DNA from: Candidatus Woesearchaeota archaeon | GTDB lineage: Archaea; Nanobdellota; Nanobdellia; SCGC-AAA011-G17; GW2011-AR20 | Direction: 5' to 3' | Assembly: GCA_018302465.1 (NCBI GenBank) | Contig: JAGVZQ010000005.1 | Coordinates: 1 to 38,166 of the forward strand | DNA: 38,166 nt | Shown: one piece after another, positions 16,319 through 24,373 of the stretch | Position numbering within the stretch: position 1 is the stretch's first letter | How the letters are laid out: the number at the start of each line of letters is the position of its first letter | Translations under genes and position numbers: made by a program | The notes under the pieces: generated by a model | Told to the model about the DNA's origin: nothing | Database searches by the model: none | Seen by the model: the letters and a program-made list of their open reading frames with translations, nothing else

Positions 16319-18268
16319 TTAATCAATCTTTTTTTTCTTTAGTAAATTTGCATTTGACACCACAGTAATGGAAGACAAAGCCATTGCAATCTCTGCTACA
16401 ACTGGATGTAGAACCCCTGCAACTGCCAAAGGTATAGCTATAACATTATAGGCAAAAGCCCAGAAAAGATTCTGTTTTATTTTTTTAAAAGTTGCTTTTG
16501 ATAGGTTAATTGCCTGAACTACCCCAATAAGGGAGCCATTTACCAGAACAATATCCCCAGATTCAATAGCTATATCTGTTCCAGTGCCCATTGCTATTCC
16601 AACATTGCTTTGCTTAAGAGCAGGAGCATCATTAATTCCATCACCTATGAAAGCAACCATTCCAGAAATTTGTAATTCCTCAACTTTTTTAGCTTTATTT
16701 TCAGGTAAAACATTTGCTATTACTTCTTTAATTCCTACTTGATTAGCTATTGCTTTTGCTGTTCTTTCATTATCTCCAGTTATCATAACTGTTCTGTATC
16801 CATAGCTATTCAGTTTTCTAATTGCTTCTTTCGAATCTTCTTTTACAGAATCTGCTACTGCAATTACACCTAAAACTTTTTTATTCATTGTCACAATCAT
16901 TGTTGTTTTTCCATCTTCCTCAAAGTCCTCTATTGATTTATTTATTTTTTCAAGTTTTATTTTCCTTTCTTTCATTAAAGTTTGGTTTCCAATAATTACT
17001 ATACTCTTCCCGATTTTACCCTCAACACCTCTTCCTCTTAATACCTTAAATCCAGTTACTTTCCTATAGCTCTTTAAAGCAGCTTTGTTAACAATTGCCC
17101 TTGCTATTGGATGCTCAGAAAGTTTTTCTAGACTAGCAGAAATATTTAGTAATTCTTTTTCTTTTATTCCTTTTATTGTATTTATATCTGTAACCTCTGG
17201 TTTTCCTTTTGTTATTGTTCCTGTTTTATCAAACACAACTATCTTAACTTCCTTCATTGTCTGAATTGCTTCTCCTTTCCTGATTAAAATCCCCCTCTTA
17301 GCTCCCATGCCAGAACTGACCATCAAAGCTGTTGGTGTTGCCAAACCTAAAGCGCAAGGGCAGGCAATAACTAAGACCGCTATTCCAACCCCCAAAGATC
17401 TGCTTATATCTCCCGTAACTATAGCCCAGCCGATAAAGGTTAATGCTGATAATATCAAAATTACTGGAACAAAAATACTTGTTATTTTATCTGCAAGCTT
17501 TTGAATTGGAATCTTTGTTCCCTGTGCTTCTTCAACTAATTCTATTATGTGCGCTAAAAATGTATCTTTCCCGACTTTTGTAGTTTTAACATATAAAATT
17601 CCATCCTGGTTTATTGTTGCCCCTATTACATTCATGCCTTTTGCTTTTTCTACCGGTAATGATTCCCCAGTAACCATTGATTCATCAACAGAACTCTCTC
17701 CTTTAATTACAACTCCATCTGTAGGTATTTTTTCTCCTGGTTTAATTAATAATATATCTCCAACCTGAACCTCAGTTATAGGAATATCATATTCCTTATT
17801 CCCCTTTACAATTCTTGCAGTCTTTGCCCCTAATTCAAGGAGTTTTCTTATTTCCTGAGAAGACCTGCCTCTTGCTTGTGCTTCAACAAATTTCCCAGTG
17901 GTAAAGAAAGCCATAATCATTGCAGCAACACCAGAATAATCCTGTATTACCCCTGTAAATGCAATTAATCCTGTTAAATATGCAATAACAGTTCCCAAAG
18001 AAATTAAGGAATCCATATTAAAATAAAATGTAACCAATCCCCTTATCCCTGCTTTTATAGTTGGCCATCCAAAAATGAAAACTACTGGAAAAGCTAATAT
18101 TAAGATTAATATTGACTGATACGGCATTTCAACAATAGAAAGGTCAAATATTCTTTCAAGGAGCATAATGAAAGCTATCGGAACTGTAAATATCCAGCTC
18201 CAAATTAGCTTTGATTTCCAGCTTTTTATCTCGCTATCTTCAATTTTTTCTTCGTGATTATGGTCCAT
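16319..18268 (-). CDS. copA: P1B-type heavy-metal (copper) translocating ATPase
   Basis: This ATPase pumps Cu+ or a similar ion across the cell membrane. The 649-residue product carries TGES (200-203), the ion-binding CPC motif in helix 6 (C303-P304-C305, [12 protein letters not shown]), DKTGT (347-351), SEHP (384-387) and a late [10 protein letters not shown]. The CPC plus the C-terminal membrane segment with VVSNANLL (N, then MxxS-like SSI) fits the P1B-1/Cu group. Unlike most CopA proteins, it has no N-terminal HMA domain, only a short His-containing leader (MDHNHEE). The HMA domain is encoded separately, two bases upstream. It is the last gene of the metal island. Confidence 0.94.
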
Positions 18269-18644: not shown

Positions 18645-19052
18645 TTATTCAACTATTAATGTTCCTGTTCCCATACCCATGCTGCAGGCAAAAGTATAAG
18701 TCCCTTTTTTATTAGGTGTAAATTCAACAGTATCTTCTGGAGTCTTTAAATATTTCCTAATCCCAAACTCCCTTATTGTAAAATCCCTTAAACAGCCAGA
18801 AACAGTTTTATCCAAGCTCATGCTTACTGGTTGATTTACTTTTACTTTTATAGTATTCGGGTAATAATTATAATTTTTCATGCCTATCACTACTTTTTGT
18901 ATCTCTCCTTCATTAGCTACAGCAACATTTCCAACAATTTCTTTATTGCTATTTTCACCATTTCTTAAAATAAAAAACCCTGCAAAAATTACTATTATAA
19001 TAATTCCAAGTATATATAAAGTAGACTTTTTAATTTCTATATTTTCTTTCAT
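18645..19052 (-). CDS. Membrane-anchored cupredoxin-like protein
   Basis: The chosen start (19052) gives 135 residues. It overlaps the upstream stop as ATGA and has a GGAGTG ribosome-binding site, so the longer reading frame upstream is not used. One N-terminal helix (about 11-28) anchors an external cupredoxin domain. GMKNYNYYPNTIKVKVNQPVSM begins the barrel. Two likely Cu ligands follow: a Cys in VSGCLRDF and a Cys in TFACSMGMGTGTL. The second lies in the position of the usual Cys/His/Met copper loop, with Met residues close by. The ligand set differs from plastocyanin, so the site type is uncertain. Confidence 0.85.
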   Translation of the reverse strand: MKENIEIKKSTLYILGIIIIVIFAGFFILRNGENSNKEIVGNVAVANEGEIQKVVIGMKNYNYYPNTIKVKVNQPVSMSLDKTVSGCLRDFTIREFGIRKYLKTPEDTVEFTPNKKGTYTFACSMGMGTGTLIVE

Positions 19053-19732
19053 TGTAAAAGCACACTCCTTGGTCCAAATACCATTATCAAAATAGTGATT
19101 GTTGTAAGTACAAAACTCCATACAATTATAAAAAACTCACTATCCTTATGCTTTCTCTCTTCATTTCTTGTTTCCTTATATATCATAAAATTCAACCCAA
19201 TCATAATAACTGCTGATACAAGGAAAACTATAACTCCCGCTGCTTTTAGATTATCATTAAGCATCATTATAGCTGTCATCGCCCCCATCAACCCACCCAT
19301 AAACCCTGCAGTTATGCCTTCCATAAAGCCCATTACCCCACAGCATTTTCCATTTAATACTCCAAAGGTTATTCCTACTAAAATTCCAAAAATACTCCCA
19401 TAAAACATGCCGTTTGTCGAACTTATATAGAATCCAGCTAAAAAGCCAGATATCATTCCAATTGTCATCCCTATCATCATTCCAGTCATGCATGGGAATT
19501 CTTTATATGCTCTAACCTGCCTTATCGAAGGTAATATCAAAGAATAGCTTAGTATTGCAAAAAATAGATAAAATCCATATTTTGGAATGAAATTTTCTAC
19601 ATACCTTAGTTTTAAGAGATAGAATAATCCAAATATTGCAAAAGACGTTATTAAGGATATAAAAACTGTTTTTATTATCTCGCCTTCCACACCATCATTT
19701 GACAATGATTTCATAAATTCTTTGAATGACAT
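19049..19732 (-). CDS. Met/Gly-rich polytopic membrane protein
   Basis: The 227-residue product has about six hydrophobic segments. Two are extremely rich in Met and Gly: CMTGMMIGMTIGMISGFLAG (about 81-100) and the stretch from CCGVMGFMEGITAGF to GAMTAIMM (about 130-157). These Met clusters plus the Cys pair could line a Cu(I) path. I do not recognise a named family. Its promoter carries the palindrome shared with the first gene of the island and a TATA element 25 bases from the ATG. It appears to open the second transcription unit (this gene, cupredoxin, mini-protein, HMA, ATPase). Confidence 0.8.
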   Translation of the reverse strand: MSFKEFMKSLSNDGVEGEIIKTVFISLITSFAIFGLFYLLKLRYVENFIPKYGFYLFFAILSYSLILPSIRQVRAYKEFPCMTGMMIGMTIGMISGFLAGFYISSTNGMFYGSIFGILVGITFGVLNGKCCGVMGFMEGITAGFMGGLMGAMTAIMMLNDNLKAAGVIVFLVSAVIMIGLNFMIYKETRNEERKHKDSEFFIIVWSFVLTTITILIMVFGPRSVLLQ

Positions 19733-20286: not shown

Positions 20287-20670
20287 TCATAAACCTCCCA
20301 TAACTTTTTTTAGTTTTTTATCAACTAGGATAGCAATATCTTTTAATTTAGGATTATCGACTACTTTCATTGCTTCTATAGGATTAATCAAAGAAATAAC
20401 AGTCTCACCATTAGTAGAATAAACTATTACATTGCAAGGCAATAAAAGGCCTATCTCTTTCTCACATTGCAGGGCCTTGTAAGCAAGTGAGGGATTACAC
20501 GCACCCAAAATTATATAATTCTCATAATCAACATTTAATTTTTGCTTCAAGTTATCTCTAACATCAATTTCTGTTATAACGCCAAATCCTTCTTTTTTTA
20601 AAGATTCCTTGATCTTAATAATTGCTTCATCATAACTTATCTTAACTTTTTTACTATGCCCATAACTCAT
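20287..20670 (-). CDS. DUF302 protein
   Basis: The 127-residue product is a clear DUF302 domain. It has a first helix with SYDEAIIKIKESLKKEGFGVITEIDV, then NYIILGACNPSLAYKALQCEKEIGLLLPCNVIVY, where the G-A-C-NP and LLPCNV motifs are diagnostic, and a final helix. DUF302 proteins are small alpha/beta proteins of unknown activity, often near copper and sulfur genes. The two Cys (in ACNP and PCNV) are conserved in the family. It has no signal peptide. It overlaps the upstream membrane gene by four bases. Confidence 0.9.
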   Translation of the reverse strand: MSYGHSKKVKISYDEAIIKIKESLKKEGFGVITEIDVRDNLKQKLNVDYENYIILGACNPSLAYKALQCEKEIGLLLPCNVIVYSTNGETVISLINPIEAMKVVDNPKLKDIAILVDKKLKKVMGGL

Positions 20671-21104
20671 TTTTTTACACCTTTCATTTTATTTTTATGC
20701 CTTATTAATAAAGTTATCCCAATTATATTGGACAATATGCCAATAGCTAAAAACCGCGCTTGATACTTTGTTAAAGTCACTGCTAAGCCTGATATTCCTA
20801 TAAATGGTATAACCTGCAGTAAAAAATGGCTGCAACAAGCAACCATTGATCCTCCTGAAATTGCTCCAGTAGCAGCAACTGTTCCTGTCATTTGTGCAGT
20901 GTACTTTATGGAAGTATAAAGACCAATCTGCACTCCAAATCCAATAGCTAGGGGAAAAATCAAATACCACATGCTTCTTAAATTCAGGAAAGCAAACTCG
21001 ACCCCCTGAAAAATGCTTACAATTGTCAGATAGAACAGCAACAATCCGATTCCAGATAATACCCCATACAGAACTGAATTATTTCTTACCATCTTTTGCA
21101 GCAC
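20667..21104 (-). CDS. Membrane protein with ACCSHF motif
   Basis: The 145-residue product has about four hydrophobic helices. The third region reads GAISGGSMVACCSHFLLQVI (about 80-99), followed by PFIGISGLAVTLTKYQARFL. A vicinal Cys pair followed by Ser-His inside a helix, then a Gly-rich turn, recalls small metal-cluster membrane proteins with ACCAHH-type motifs. It probably handles a soft metal ion or a thiol in the membrane. No named family is assigned. It overlaps its neighbours on both sides (DUF302 gene by four bases, upstream gene by 19). Confidence 0.75.
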   Translation of the reverse strand: MLQKMVRNNSVLYGVLSGIGLLLFYLTIVSIFQGVEFAFLNLRSMWYLIFPLAIGFGVQIGLYTSIKYTAQMTGTVAATGAISGGSMVACCSHFLLQVIPFIGISGLAVTLTKYQARFLAIGILSNIIGITLLIRHKNKMKGVKK

Positions 21105-21526
21105 TCAACTAATTTTCTTGCTATATTTTCTAATTTTCCATTATCTTTAAACGAATAGATAATAAAAAATAATCCCCAAATTAAAACTAAAAAATATACA
21201 ATATTAAAAGAATAATTAAATCCTTCAATAAAAGTATATCCAATTAAGATTAAAGTCAAAAGAAAAGGCAGTCCAAATAGTTTAAGCTCTTCTTTCACCT
21301 TATTCTCAATTAAATAAAAAATTCCAAGCGTGCTTTCTCCAATTAAAATTGCCAGAATTGTCTTGTCTAAAAACTTCCCCTTCCAGAATAAAATCAAAAA
21401 GAAAATCCAGGAAATAAAAACACTGGCGCAAATCACACATATTTTATTTTTCTTAAAAATCGGTTTAATTAAAAGAAAGATAAAAAATAGTACGGTTATT
21501 AATAATAAAACACTGAAGAGATTCAT
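21086..21526 (-). CDS. Polytopic membrane protein of the metal island
   Basis: The 146-residue product has about four hydrophobic helices (roughly 1-20, 26-48, 80-100 and 108-126) and a Lys/Glu-rich loop (about 68-77). Cys occur at about 31 and 34 (CVICAS) in the second helix and at the C-terminal end (ECCKRW). This makes paired Cys a recurrent theme of the operon. The family is not recognised. It is flanked by genes on the same strand with one-base and overlapping junctions, so it is clearly part of the operon. Confidence 0.65.
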   Translation of the reverse strand: MNLFSVLLLITVLFFIFLLIKPIFKKNKICVICASVFISWIFFLILFWKGKFLDKTILAILIGESTLGIFYLIENKVKEELKLFGLPFLLTLILIGYTFIEGFNYSFNIVYFLVLIWGLFFIIYSFKDNGKLENIARKLVECCKRW

Positions 21527-21527
21527 T

Positions 21528-22052
21528 TTAAATAATAATTTGAATAATTCCTCCTAAAATTATTAATATCAAGAATGTTAAAACAATGCCTTGGAAAGGT
21601 ATTAATTTCCCATTTCTTATTTCAGTTATTTTTTTACTTAAACTTGGAGAAATAAAAACAATTAATCCTCCTATTAAAGCTGAAACAAGTGAATAATCAA
21701 ATGCATACGTCTTTCCATATTCACCAATAAATGAAAGATACAAAGGTCCAACACTTTCAAATATCGGCATTAAAGGCCATACAGTAAGCGCAAAAATAGT
21801 TATAATCACTAGAATATTTTGAAAAGGAATATAGTTCCATCTTTTTTCTATAACCCTTGAGAACCACATACCCATAGATATAGCAAAAGCCCCTATAAAT
21901 AATGCAACAACTATCTTACTTACACCAAGCCAAACAGCTCCAGCAGCAGCAGCTCCAGCACCTATTGTACAAAGAGGACAATGAGCCATTACTGTTGGGG
22001 TTAAGAATAGAGTAAATATCCCTAATAAAAATAAAATAATTTTTTTTGGCAT
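21528..22052 (-). CDS. Membrane protein with signal peptide and HCPLC motif
   Basis: The 174-residue product begins with a signal-peptide-like segment (about 3-22, ending VMAH). HCPLCTIGAGAAAAGAVWLGVS (from residue 23) follows. After cleavage, a His-Cys-x-x-Cys site would sit at the new N terminus, outside and next to a Gly/Ala-rich helix. Four further hydrophobic helices follow. A site of this form suits a soft-metal or redox function. The gene lies one base downstream of the DUF411 gene. No named family is assigned with confidence. Confidence 0.75.
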   Translation of the reverse strand: MPKKIILFLLGIFTLFLTPTVMAHCPLCTIGAGAAAAGAVWLGVSKIVVALFIGAFAISMGMWFSRVIEKRWNYIPFQNILVIITIFALTVWPLMPIFESVGPLYLSFIGEYGKTYAFDYSLVSALIGGLIVFISPSLSKKITEIRNGKLIPFQGIVLTFLILIILGGIIQIII

Positions 22053-22053
22053 C

Positions 22054-22539
22054 TTACAATCTCATCCATTCTGTATAGCTCCCATCATTATTAACAGCAT
22101 AAATCACAAAATCCCCTGTTTTTGCTCCAGGCATTCCAGGACTTCCAGAAGGCATTCCAGGCATTGCTATGCCTTTGATATCTGGTTTTTCAGTTAATAA
22201 TTTATTAACAGCTTCTAAAGGAACATGGCCTTCAACAAAATAGTTGCCCATAATTGTTGTGTGGCAGCTCTCCATAGCGCTTGGAATTCCATATTTTGTT
22301 TTTATTGCTTGAAGATCCTGTAAATCAACAACATTTATTTTAGGATTTCCTTTGCTTTTGAAATAAGTTGAATATACCCCACAACAACCACAGCTCCCAG
22401 ATTTATAAATCACCATATCATCTTCGAAATTACTAACAGCTTCAAGGCTGCTTACATCCTTGCTTCCAAAAGAAAAAAATATGATTCCTAAAAAAATTAC
22501 AAAGATTATTCCTAAAATAAGAAATGTTTTTTTGGCCAT
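22054..22539 (-). CDS. DUF411 metal-binding protein, membrane anchored
   Basis: DUF411 proteins are exported copper/heavy-metal-binding proteins. The 161-residue product has an N-terminal helix (about 5-23) and then the complete domain. It includes GSCGCCGVY with C50, C52 and C53, the GIPSAMESCHTTIMGNYFVEGHVP segment with C92, H93 and H105, and the terminal GIAMPGMPSGSPGMPG (about 129-144). The Met-Pro-Gly stretch and Cys/His residues suit Cu(I). The helix lacks a clear cleavage site, so the protein is probably tethered outside. It follows the GMVGGC-tailed gene by six bases. Confidence 0.93.
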   Translation of the reverse strand: MAKKTFLILGIIFVIFLGIIFFSFGSKDVSSLEAVSNFEDDMVIYKSGSCGCCGVYSTYFKSKGNPKINVVDLQDLQAIKTKYGIPSAMESCHTTIMGNYFVEGHVPLEAVNKLLTEKPDIKGIAMPGMPSGSPGMPGAKTGDFVIYAVNNDGSYTEWMRL

Positions 22540-22545
22540 TTTAAC

Positions 22546-22788
22546 CTAACATCCTCCAACCATACCTGATCCTGTTAATCCACCTGATGAACTGCCCTGA
22601 GCTCTTGCAGGGATTGTTCCGTGCATTTCATAATTCATTATTTCATTATCTGTCCAACCCCTTGTGTCTATTGCATTACCTCTTACTGTGTTTCCAGTTA
22701 TACTTGATGCTTGATATGTCAAAAAAAGTGCTATTAAAAACAATGCACCTATAACTACAATCATCAATGTATTCCTTTTTATTTCCAT
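22546..22788 (-). CDS. 80-residue membrane-anchored protein with C-terminal GMVGGC
   Basis: The product has one N-terminal hydrophobic helix (about 8-27), then an external part with GWTDNEIMNYEMHGTIPARAQG (about 44-65). A Gly/Ser spacer follows, and it ends in GSGMVGGC, with Cys as the last residue. The same final hexapeptide occurs in two neighbours. Met, His and the terminal Cys could form a metal site. The start codon follows the stop of the preceding gene directly (TGA then ATG), and the GGAGG within that gene's last codons is at the right distance to act as its ribosome-binding site. The family is unknown to me. Confidence 0.8.
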   Translation of the reverse strand: MEIKRNTLMIVVIGALFLIALFLTYQASSITGNTVRGNAIDTRGWTDNEIMNYEMHGTIPARAQGSSSGGLTGSGMVGGC

Positions 22789-22959
22789 TCAGCATCCTCC
22801 AACCATTCCAGACGACACTATGCTTCTTGATGTATCTGTTATTGCCTGTGCAGCTTCAACATTTCCTAAACCTGCTCTGAAAGTTAAAACTAATGCAGCA
22901 ACAAAAAGCACACCTATTGCTCCCCATAGAATCATTCTTGTATCTATTTTCTTGCTCAT
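22789..22959 (-). CDS. 56-residue membrane mini-protein with C-terminal GMVGGC
   Basis: This 56-codon frame encodes a basic start (MSKKIDTR), one hydrophobic helix (about 9-27), a short Ala/Ser-rich segment and the terminal SSGMVGGC. It is supported by its ATGA overlap with the upstream mini-gene, by its abutting the next gene, and by the shared C-terminal hexapeptide. The orientation should place the tail outside. No family is recognised. The DNA of the final codons contains ATGGTTGGAGGATG, identical in all three genes with this tail. Confidence 0.8.
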   Translation of the reverse strand: MSKKIDTRMILWGAIGVLFVAALVLTFRAGLGNVEAAQAITDTSRSIVSSGMVGGC

Positions 22960-23069
22960 TTTCTTTTAGCCCCCTTCAATTTTTTAGATGGTTTTTGTCT
23001 ATTGAAAAAACCTGATTTATCCATGTCCTTGCAACATCCTTTATTATTTTTTGTTTCACAACATTCCAT
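22956..23069 (-). CDS. 37-residue Cys-rich mini-protein (CC-X7-CC)
   Basis: This 37-codon frame encodes MECCETKNNKGCCKDMDKSG and a very basic tail (KKLKGAKRK). The paired cysteines (C3-C4 and C12-C13) suggest a metal-binding hairpin. Evidence for translation is a GGAGG ribosome-binding site (complement near 23074-23078), an ATGA overlap with the next gene and a fit to the gap. A second frame over the same DNA is open for 62 codons but lacks a ribosome-binding site and coupling. The absence of a hydrophobic segment places it in the cytosol. The function is inferred. Confidence 0.7.
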   Translation of the reverse strand: MECCETKNNKGCCKDMDKSGFFNRQKPSKKLKGAKRK

Positions 23070-23114
23070 TTTTCCTCCATTTTAAAAAAGGGAAAAAGAT
23101 GCAAGAAATAAAAT

Positions 23115-23789
23115 CTAGCATCCTCCAACCATTCCGCCTGAATTTGCTGCTTGCCCTTGCTCAATCCCTCTGTACAAATTACTTGCCAAATTGATGTAAT
23201 TTGATGAGTCTATCCCATTAGCTTCTAAAACTTGGGCTTTCTGCTCGTGTATTCCTGGAAAGAAAAGAACTTTCCATTTTCCTAATTCATTAAGAATTTC
23301 CTTATCAGCCATATCAGGGTGTTTTGTCAATAGATATTTTGCCAGTCCTCTCATTGCATAGCTATGTGCGCATCCGCAAGCCCTTTCACCATTAGAAAAG
23401 ATTATTGCTTTTGCACCGCAGCAATACTCGCAGCTTATACTTGAGCCTATTTTAATATACCTGTCCATTTGCTCTGAATTAAGTTGCATATCTTCATACT
23501 GCGTTAATTTAGCAATGGTTGCATCTGCAAGTGTAGGGTTATTCGGCGAAACATCGTCATAAAAAACCCCTATTTCCTTTCCATAAACTGATGGAATTCC
23601 CTTAGGAATAATCTTCGAAGCAGAAACAGCAGTTATCCCTGTCGCAAATCCTCCTGCTTCAGAACCCGGAGATGAGTAAATTTTACCAACATTAAAAGTT
23701 ATCACTAACAATAATATAGCAATAATTCCTAATTGCACGTAAAATTCAGTGTTGGTTTTCTCTTTTGTTTCATAATTCTTATTTTCCAT
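23115..23789 (-). CDS. Membrane-anchored Cys/His-rich protein with C-terminal GMVGGC
   Basis: The 224-residue product, first in the island operon, has an N-terminal helix (about 17-34), then an external domain. Its core carries SCEYCCGAKAIIFSNGERAC (C120, C123, C124 and C138), then GCAH (C140, H142) and RGLAKYLLTKHPDM. This recalls the PCYCGC-type Cys clusters of secreted metal-related proteins, though that is only a resemblance. It ends in NSGGMVGGC, with the same last six residues as two downstream products. The stop is TAG. Its promoter has the shared palindrome and a TATA element about 25 bases from the ATG. Confidence 0.8.
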   Translation of the reverse strand: MENKNYETKEKTNTEFYVQLGIIAILLLVITFNVGKIYSSPGSEAGGFATGITAVSASKIIPKGIPSVYGKEIGVFYDDVSPNNPTLADATIAKLTQYEDMQLNSEQMDRYIKIGSSISCEYCCGAKAIIFSNGERACGCAHSYAMRGLAKYLLTKHPDMADKEILNELGKWKVLFFPGIHEQKAQVLEANGIDSSNYINLASNLYRGIEQGQAANSGGMVGGC

Positions 23790-23881: not shown

Positions 23882-24373
23882 ATGGAAAATAAATATGTAG
23901 GATATCTACTGCTTGGAGTTTCAATATTAATTGTAGTCTTAATACTGCTATTTAATTCAACAATGAAAAGCTTTGTCGATGAAACATGCTCTCTGGAACA
24001 CGGTTTGTCATGTCCTATGTATGAAGCGATATCAAAACAAACTTATCTTGCTTTGGGGGTTATAGGATTGCTTATCATAGTATCCGTTGCTTTGATCTTC
24101 TCAAAACCTCAAAAGGAATTTATCTTTAAAACAAGAACAATTGAGAAAAAAATACAAAAGAAGAAACTAGATATCTCTGATCTAAAAGAAGAGGAAAAAC
24201 AGGTCTTAGAACTAATTCAGTCTAACAAAGCAGTATTCCAGTCAGATTTGATCGAAAAAACAGGATTTGGGAAAGCCAAAATGACAAGGATTATAGACAG
24301 ATTAGAAGGTAAGGGTTTTGTAGAAAGGAAAAGAAGAGGCATGACTAATGTTGTAGTTTTAAAAGATATTTAA
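23882..24373 (+). CDS. Membrane-anchored winged-helix transcription regulator (probable metal sensor)
   Basis: The 163-residue product has TM1 (about 6-25), an external loop, TM2 (about 54-73), a basic coiled linker (about 80-100), and a MarR/DUF7343-like winged helix (about 103-163; VFQSDLIEKTGFGKAKMTRIIDRLEGKGFVERKRRG). The loop DETCSLEHGLSCPMYE places C36, H40, C44 and M46 together, a set suited to Cu(I). This is a one-component sensor that could read external metal and act directly on DNA. It is divergent from the island, with the shared palindrome between them. The 3' end overlaps the phosphoesterase gene by 15 bases. Metal specificity and operator binding are inferred. Confidence 0.85.
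   Translation: MENKYVGYLLLGVSILIVVLILLFNSTMKSFVDETCSLEHGLSCPMYEAISKQTYLALGVIGLLIIVSVALIFSKPQKEFIFKTRTIEKKIQKKKLDISDLKEEEKQVLELIQSNKAVFQSDLIEKTGFGKAKMTRIIDRLEGKGFVERKRRGMTNVVVLKDI

Follow-up and report, generated by a model that had tools for sequence, protein, structure and literature searches.

Why should three neighbouring genes with products of different length close with the same six residues? In the window, by which the whole analysed stretch of 38,166 nucleotides from a Candidatus Woesearchaeota archaeon is meant, a sequence check identified three minus-strand open reading frames that end in GMVGGC directly before the stop codon. P0001 (23115-23789; 224 residues) consists of an N-terminal membrane helix, a Cys5-His domain, a linker and the C-terminal GMVGGC, whose codons, stop included, are GGAATGGTTGGAGGATGCTAG at 23115..23135 (-). 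P0002 (22789-22959; 56 residues) has one membrane helix and a flexible linker before GMVGGC (codons with stop at 22789..22809, -). P0003 (22546-22788; 80 residues) has one membrane helix, a GWTxNExMNYEMHGTIPAR segment and a linker before GMVGGC (codons with stop at 22546..22566, -). The first-pass annotation had reported the exact common ending with Cys as the last residue and a helix at each N-terminus, and both claims were confirmed, each product having one N-terminal hydrophobic helix. Two of the three tails are identical over 19 bases, GGAATGGTTGGAGGATGCT. A degenerate pattern for GMVGGC followed by a stop codon matched only three places in the whole source genome (748,631 bases, 97.7% complete), and the reversed control gave no match.

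The bodies of the three products had been described as unlike. This held for P0001 and P0003, between which MVGGC was the only meaningful aligned stretch, but not for P0002 and P0003, where a weak similarity over the N-terminal helix (33% identity, E=0.001 in a single comparison) indicates anchors that are probably paralogous. When the large family was compared with the small one by profiles, the helix region alone aligned. Common descent of these anchors is possible and no firmer than that, because in such a region composition alone can yield similarity. A Cys-rich open reading frame of 37 residues (22956..23069, -; CC...GCC), beginning MECCETKNNKGCCKD, overlaps the start of P0002. Its sequence is like the N-terminal extension found in several relatives of P0002, which begin MAVKMDCCKTKNHDGCCKDL or MECCNTKEKEGCCEDK, and in relatives such as those at L069 and L071 a similar stretch is fused to the small carrier.

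The ending is not a peculiarity of this genome. MVGGC followed by a stop codon was found in 99 of 371 genomes of the phylum, usually as two to four adjacent copies on the same strand, a recurrence far beyond chance given three control matches in total over all 371 genomes. A homologue of P0001 was present in 102 of the 371. All 99 genomes with the ending carry such a homologue, and none of the 269 genomes without the homologue has the ending. The three genomes with the domain and no MVGGC have related endings, namely QVGGC in both partners (G011 and G316) and IVGEC (G078, where a small partner was looked for and none was found). The search for QVGGC also gave four single matches: the one in G212 is not followed by a stop codon, and for those in G311, G238 and G334 no open frame of 30 residues ending in QVGGC was present in the short loci examined. 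No relative was found in the viral contigs and plasmids searched.

Members of the family occur in Woesearchaeota, Pacearchaeota, Aenigmatarchaeota, Micrarchaeota, Diapherotrites and Patescibacteria. In the last phylum the domain was detected in six of 145 genomes searched, all of them metagenome bins, so that a mis-binned contig is possible for any single one. The ending is MVGGC in G436, G500, G501 and G508, likewise in G491 at a contig edge, and MVGDC in G380; in G436, G501 and G508 the large gene is accompanied by a small MVGGC partner and then a thioredoxin-like protein. A lone MVGGC-stop in a further patescibacterial genome, G393, closes an open stretch of 16 residues in the absence of the domain gene and was taken as a chance match. 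At L240:1660-2400 (Candidatus Yanofskybacteria, of the same phylum) a P-type ATPase-like gene comes immediately after that of a domain protein ending in MVGDC, and a small VGGC carrier was not seen at this locus.

The tail itself is strongly conserved. In 47 diverse small proteins M-V-G-G-C was invariant and no other column was conserved in at least 90% of the sequences. Among the 197 distinct tails collected every Val codon occurs, as does every Gly codon at either Gly, both Cys codons and each of the three stop codons, and selection for a shared function is almost certainly acting on the peptide. Of 102 domain proteins, 84 end in MVGGC, one in MVGAC and one in MAGGC, while 16 are tailless; beside these 16, the adjacent small protein ends in MVGGC in 14 cases and in QVGSC in two. 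Partners within a locus tend to change together, as far as the three loci on which this covariation rests can tell. Val is replaced by Ala on both partners at L153 (MAGGC), and Met by Gln on both partners in two separate clades (G011 and G316), with different codons in the paired tails. G011 clusters with G190 and G270, congeners in which the tail retains Met (97/95 support), and G316 with G058, which keeps it too, at weaker support (81/57) and on a fragment. One locus, L084, breaks the covariation by pairing MVGAC with MVGGC. None of the tailed variants seen lacks the terminal Cys, whereas Met, Val and the second Gly each give way to another residue now and then; the essential chemistry is therefore most simply that of a thiol and its carboxylate, presented in a V-G-x-C frame that is recognised. 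The view of the first-pass annotation that the extreme C-terminus reflects a common function is strongly supported by this conservation, by the covariation of partners at a locus and by the fact that the ending co-occurs with a single domain family only.

In two alignments of the large family C120, C123, C124, C138, C140 and H142 of P0001 (C120xxC123C124 ... C138xC140xH142) were invariant, and the MVGGC columns were conserved in at least 90%. No family was found for P0001 in Pfam or NCBIfam, a search with 55 homologues against known families gave only scattered weak matches of single members, and the family had no convincing match among PDB sequences. AlphaFold2 modelled the single chain with a mean pLDDT of 89, the tail block lying at 71-77, and Foldseek found no PDB fold matching this model with E<=0.001. 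After the helix, 84 of 102 large proteins contain six Cys, which are the five of the domain and that of the tail. The positive charge is greater before the helix than after it in 77% of the large proteins, which supports a C-terminus directed outward. Two of the tailless domain proteins, L135:924-2150 and L113:9989-11311, bear a fused membrane domain of several helices at the N-terminus, which contains a CPVC motif, an arrangement suggesting that there the domain may receive metal or electrons from a membrane transporter.

All 111 of 111 small proteins contain exactly one Cys after the helix, that of the tail, and the linker is rich in Ser, Ala, Gly, Pro and Gln. Each small gene that was assigned to a domain gene, 111 in all, lies downstream of it on the same strand, with a median gap of 45 bases. 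The topology of the small proteins is less certain than that of the large ones, since only 50% of them have more positive charge ahead of the helix than behind it.

The genes that follow on the minus strand include copper genes. A membrane-anchored DUF411 protein (22054..22539; Pfam PF04214, E=1.1e-24) is followed by a multi-helix membrane protein with the sequence A-H-C-P-L-C after a signal-like helix (21528..22052; the HCPLC protein), a membrane protein of 146 residues in the same operon (21086..21526), a membrane protein of 145 residues with a CC pair (20667..21104), a DUF302 protein (20287..20670; PF03625, E=8.2e-25), a cupredoxin-like membrane-anchored protein with weak nitrosocyanin and plastocyanin matches below the cut-off (18645..19121) and a copper-type P-type ATPase (16319..18268; TIGR01511, 583.5 bits at a cut-off of 397). 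On the plus strand lies a divergent membrane-anchored MarR/winged-helix-like regulator (23882..24373, +) with weak winged-helix matches below the cut-off. Its two membrane helices with a Cys pair between them and its winged-helix-like end suggest a membrane-bound metal or redox sensor. A23, H24, C25 and C28 of the HCPLC protein were invariant in 56 sequences; its model (mean pLDDT 90) had no PDB fold match with E<=0.001, and no meaningful Pfam match was obtained. If the protein is cleaved after the Ala, an N-terminal His-Cys would be exposed and might form a copper site, at the end of the chain opposite to the one used by the VGGC arms.

Two types of locus could be distinguished. Type A, counted over 41 loci with the window included, has the copper-associated P-type ATPase (21 loci) and DUF411 protein (23), together with the regulator (39), the HCPLC protein (32), the 145-residue protein (27, or 21 in a second clustering) and the 146-residue protein (15). 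In type B (40 loci) the neighbours are a thioredoxin-fold (multi-thioredoxin) protein in 35 and a DsbD-like membrane protein in 30, a combination that the window does not have. The multi-thioredoxin protein was considered as a universal reader of the tail and rejected, being absent from the source genome, which is of type A. Among Patescibacteria, L263 brings the pair together with a thioredoxin-like protein, an HMA-bearing P-type ATPase, a DUF411 protein and an HCPLC protein, and CsoR-family repressors are encoded near the pair at L261 and next to the large gene at L264. The tail is preceded by LPx in 38 of 46 large and 51 of 54 small type B proteins, and in 0 of 38 large and 1 of 57 small type A proteins, counts that are approximate because the sorting into types relied here on a simple pattern in the sequence. 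Small proteins resembling lipoproteins are encoded beside the carriers, at L143:9410-9604 and at ten other loci, mostly of type B; their VGGGC(G) motif is situated near the C-terminal half. They make up a third family with a motif resembling VGG-Cys, which stands at the very end in two cases.

The preferred explanation for these observations is that the tails may act as membrane-tethered cysteine arms. Each carrier would be fixed by its N-terminal helix, and the flexible linker would reach outward and present a specific recognition end, [MQ]-V-G-G-C-COOH. The arms may cooperate with the large protein's Cys5-His domain, in cis through that protein's own tail, in trans through the small neighbours, or both, in a handover of Cu(I) or an exchange of thiols at the outer face of the membrane. 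The domain is the most economical partner, since at least one tail is present in cis or trans at 102 loci and no tail was seen without the domain. Judged by the neighbouring genes, the chemistry is likely to be Cu(I) transfer or thiol exchange. In type A the arms would feed the copper-handling set of DUF411 protein, HCPLC protein and P-type ATPase; in type B they would be coupled to the DsbD-like protein and the multi-thioredoxin protein, which could supply electrons. Our confidence in this explanation as a whole, with extracytoplasmic Cu(I) or thiol handling by the domain and its arms, is evenly balanced. Against it speaks that a ubiquitous partner encoded elsewhere would yield an identical co-occurrence, and that the strict conservation of Val and both Gly exceeds the need of a simple thiol carrier.

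Of the three suggestions made in the first-pass annotation, docking to a common partner is the best fit. In a rival form of it, an extracytoplasmic protein other than the Cys5-His domain would read VGGC and gather the carriers into one complex, whether or not the Cys is chemically active. The conservation of all five residues at the exact terminus, the covariation of tails within loci and the LPx context common to large and small type B proteins fit such a tag. However, the domain family and the small carriers are the only families common to nearly all loci of both types, so that no third family presents itself as the reader, and the tail never occurred without the domain in 371 genomes. A separate reader is considered unlikely.

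A second suggestion was a Cu(I)-binding Met/Cys tail, in which Met and the terminal Cys would bind copper directly and ferry it to the ATPase or the DUF411 protein. The copper gene context, including the CsoR-family repressors in Patescibacteria, and the Met found in the great majority of tails agree with this. The two residues are not both kept, however: Met is replaced by Gln in both partners of two genomes and in the QVGSC variants, and by Ile in a third genome, which weakens a site made of Met and Cys and disfavours Met as an obligatory ligand. In addition, the related VGGGC lipoproteins have no Met at the equivalent place and the conservation of V-G-G is left unexplained. A Met/Cys site is judged improbable; copper binding by the Cys only is possible and is covered by the tethered arms.

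The third suggestion, a processing or attachment signal, would make the terminal VGGC a substrate for cleavage, lipidation or cross-linking, and conservation of the full motif at an exact C-terminal position on unlike bodies speaks for it. It was weakened by the lack of a shared processing or transfer enzyme in the loci: among the families shared by them, several of which are membrane families of unknown function, no peptidase- or transferase-like family was recognised. Moreover, the carriers are already anchored by the N-terminal helix, they are few per genome and nearly all adjoin the domain gene, and tailless domain proteins occur. This reading, too, is quite doubtful. Finally, the 19 identical bases and the weakly similar anchors of P0002 and P0003 might suggest that the genes were duplicated locally, or converted, in the recent past and have no function in common. 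This origin, which would leave similarity along whole genes, was rejected as exceedingly improbable, given that the tail spans several archaeal phyla and Patescibacteria with varied codons and diverging bodies and that partner tails differ in codons where both have changed together.

Returning to the tethered arms, the evidence suggests that tiny symbiont-like archaea and some equally tiny bacteria handle copper or thiols at their surface with a machine not described before. With middling confidence it is put forward as a metal/thiol relay on the extracytoplasmic side of DPANN archaea and Patescibacteria, whose Cys5-His domain would read a [MQ]VGGC-COOH code in cis and in trans on several arms. 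A five-residue ending that is invariant, or changes in step, on neighbouring proteins across several DPANN phyla and Patescibacteria is a rare and clean case of a peptide code that seems to have a reader. Through it the management of copper and thiols at the surface of gene-poor, partner-dependent cells becomes accessible, and a domain family that has no known fold match is added. The MVGGC peptide is easily synthesised and suited to direct binding tests. Should the carriers prove to be ordinary Cu(I) chaperones, the system would fall within a familiar class.

Known C-terminal sorting tags include PGF-CTERM with archaeosortase, GlyGly-CTERM with rhombosortase (PMC6219818) and MYXO-CTERM with myxosortase (PMC11980579). 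In these, a short C-terminal signature is common to otherwise different surface proteins, as with VGGC, and MYXO-CTERM shares with it an invariant Cys (PMC11980579). In CTERM tags the motif precedes a hydrophobic helix at the C-terminus and then positive residues, is served by a dedicated membrane protease and is carried by often dozens of proteins. The VGGC carriers, in contrast, have Cys as the last residue and are few and clustered. A motif followed by a hydrophobic helix and a positive cluster was not found in them, the clear helix of the small carriers being N-terminal, and no sortase or rhomboid-like protease was recognised among the families shared by the loci. By title and abstract, no paper on the MVGGC tag was found in the open literature searched, a scope that leaves most subscription journals outside, and nothing on point was found there on copper in DPANN archaea or on C-terminal motifs of this kind. 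What is new about the system is an undescribed domain together with a C-terminal Cys code in which the sorting-tag features tested for were absent.

Genes of copper-handling loci (P-type ATPase, DUF411, DUF302, cupredoxin, CsoR) recur in type A loci and, to some extent, in those of Patescibacteria. What sets the latter two apart is the presence of the Cys5-His domain, of VGGC carriers and of the HCPLC protein, none of which has a meaningful Pfam match. Type B loci, with DsbD-like and multi-thioredoxin proteins beside the carriers, resemble the DsbD/CcdA-thioredoxin systems that export reducing power, although we know of no described member of these with C-terminal VGGC carriers or a Cys5-His domain. 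Mobile Cys segments that ferry metal or electrons to an active site are represented by the C-terminal Cys pair of mercuric reductase and the C-terminal redox tail of thioredoxin reductase. Those enzymes are cytosolic and use two redox residues, whereas the VGGC arms have a single terminal Cys, are borne on separate membrane-anchored carriers and present the Cys in an invariant V-G-G context.
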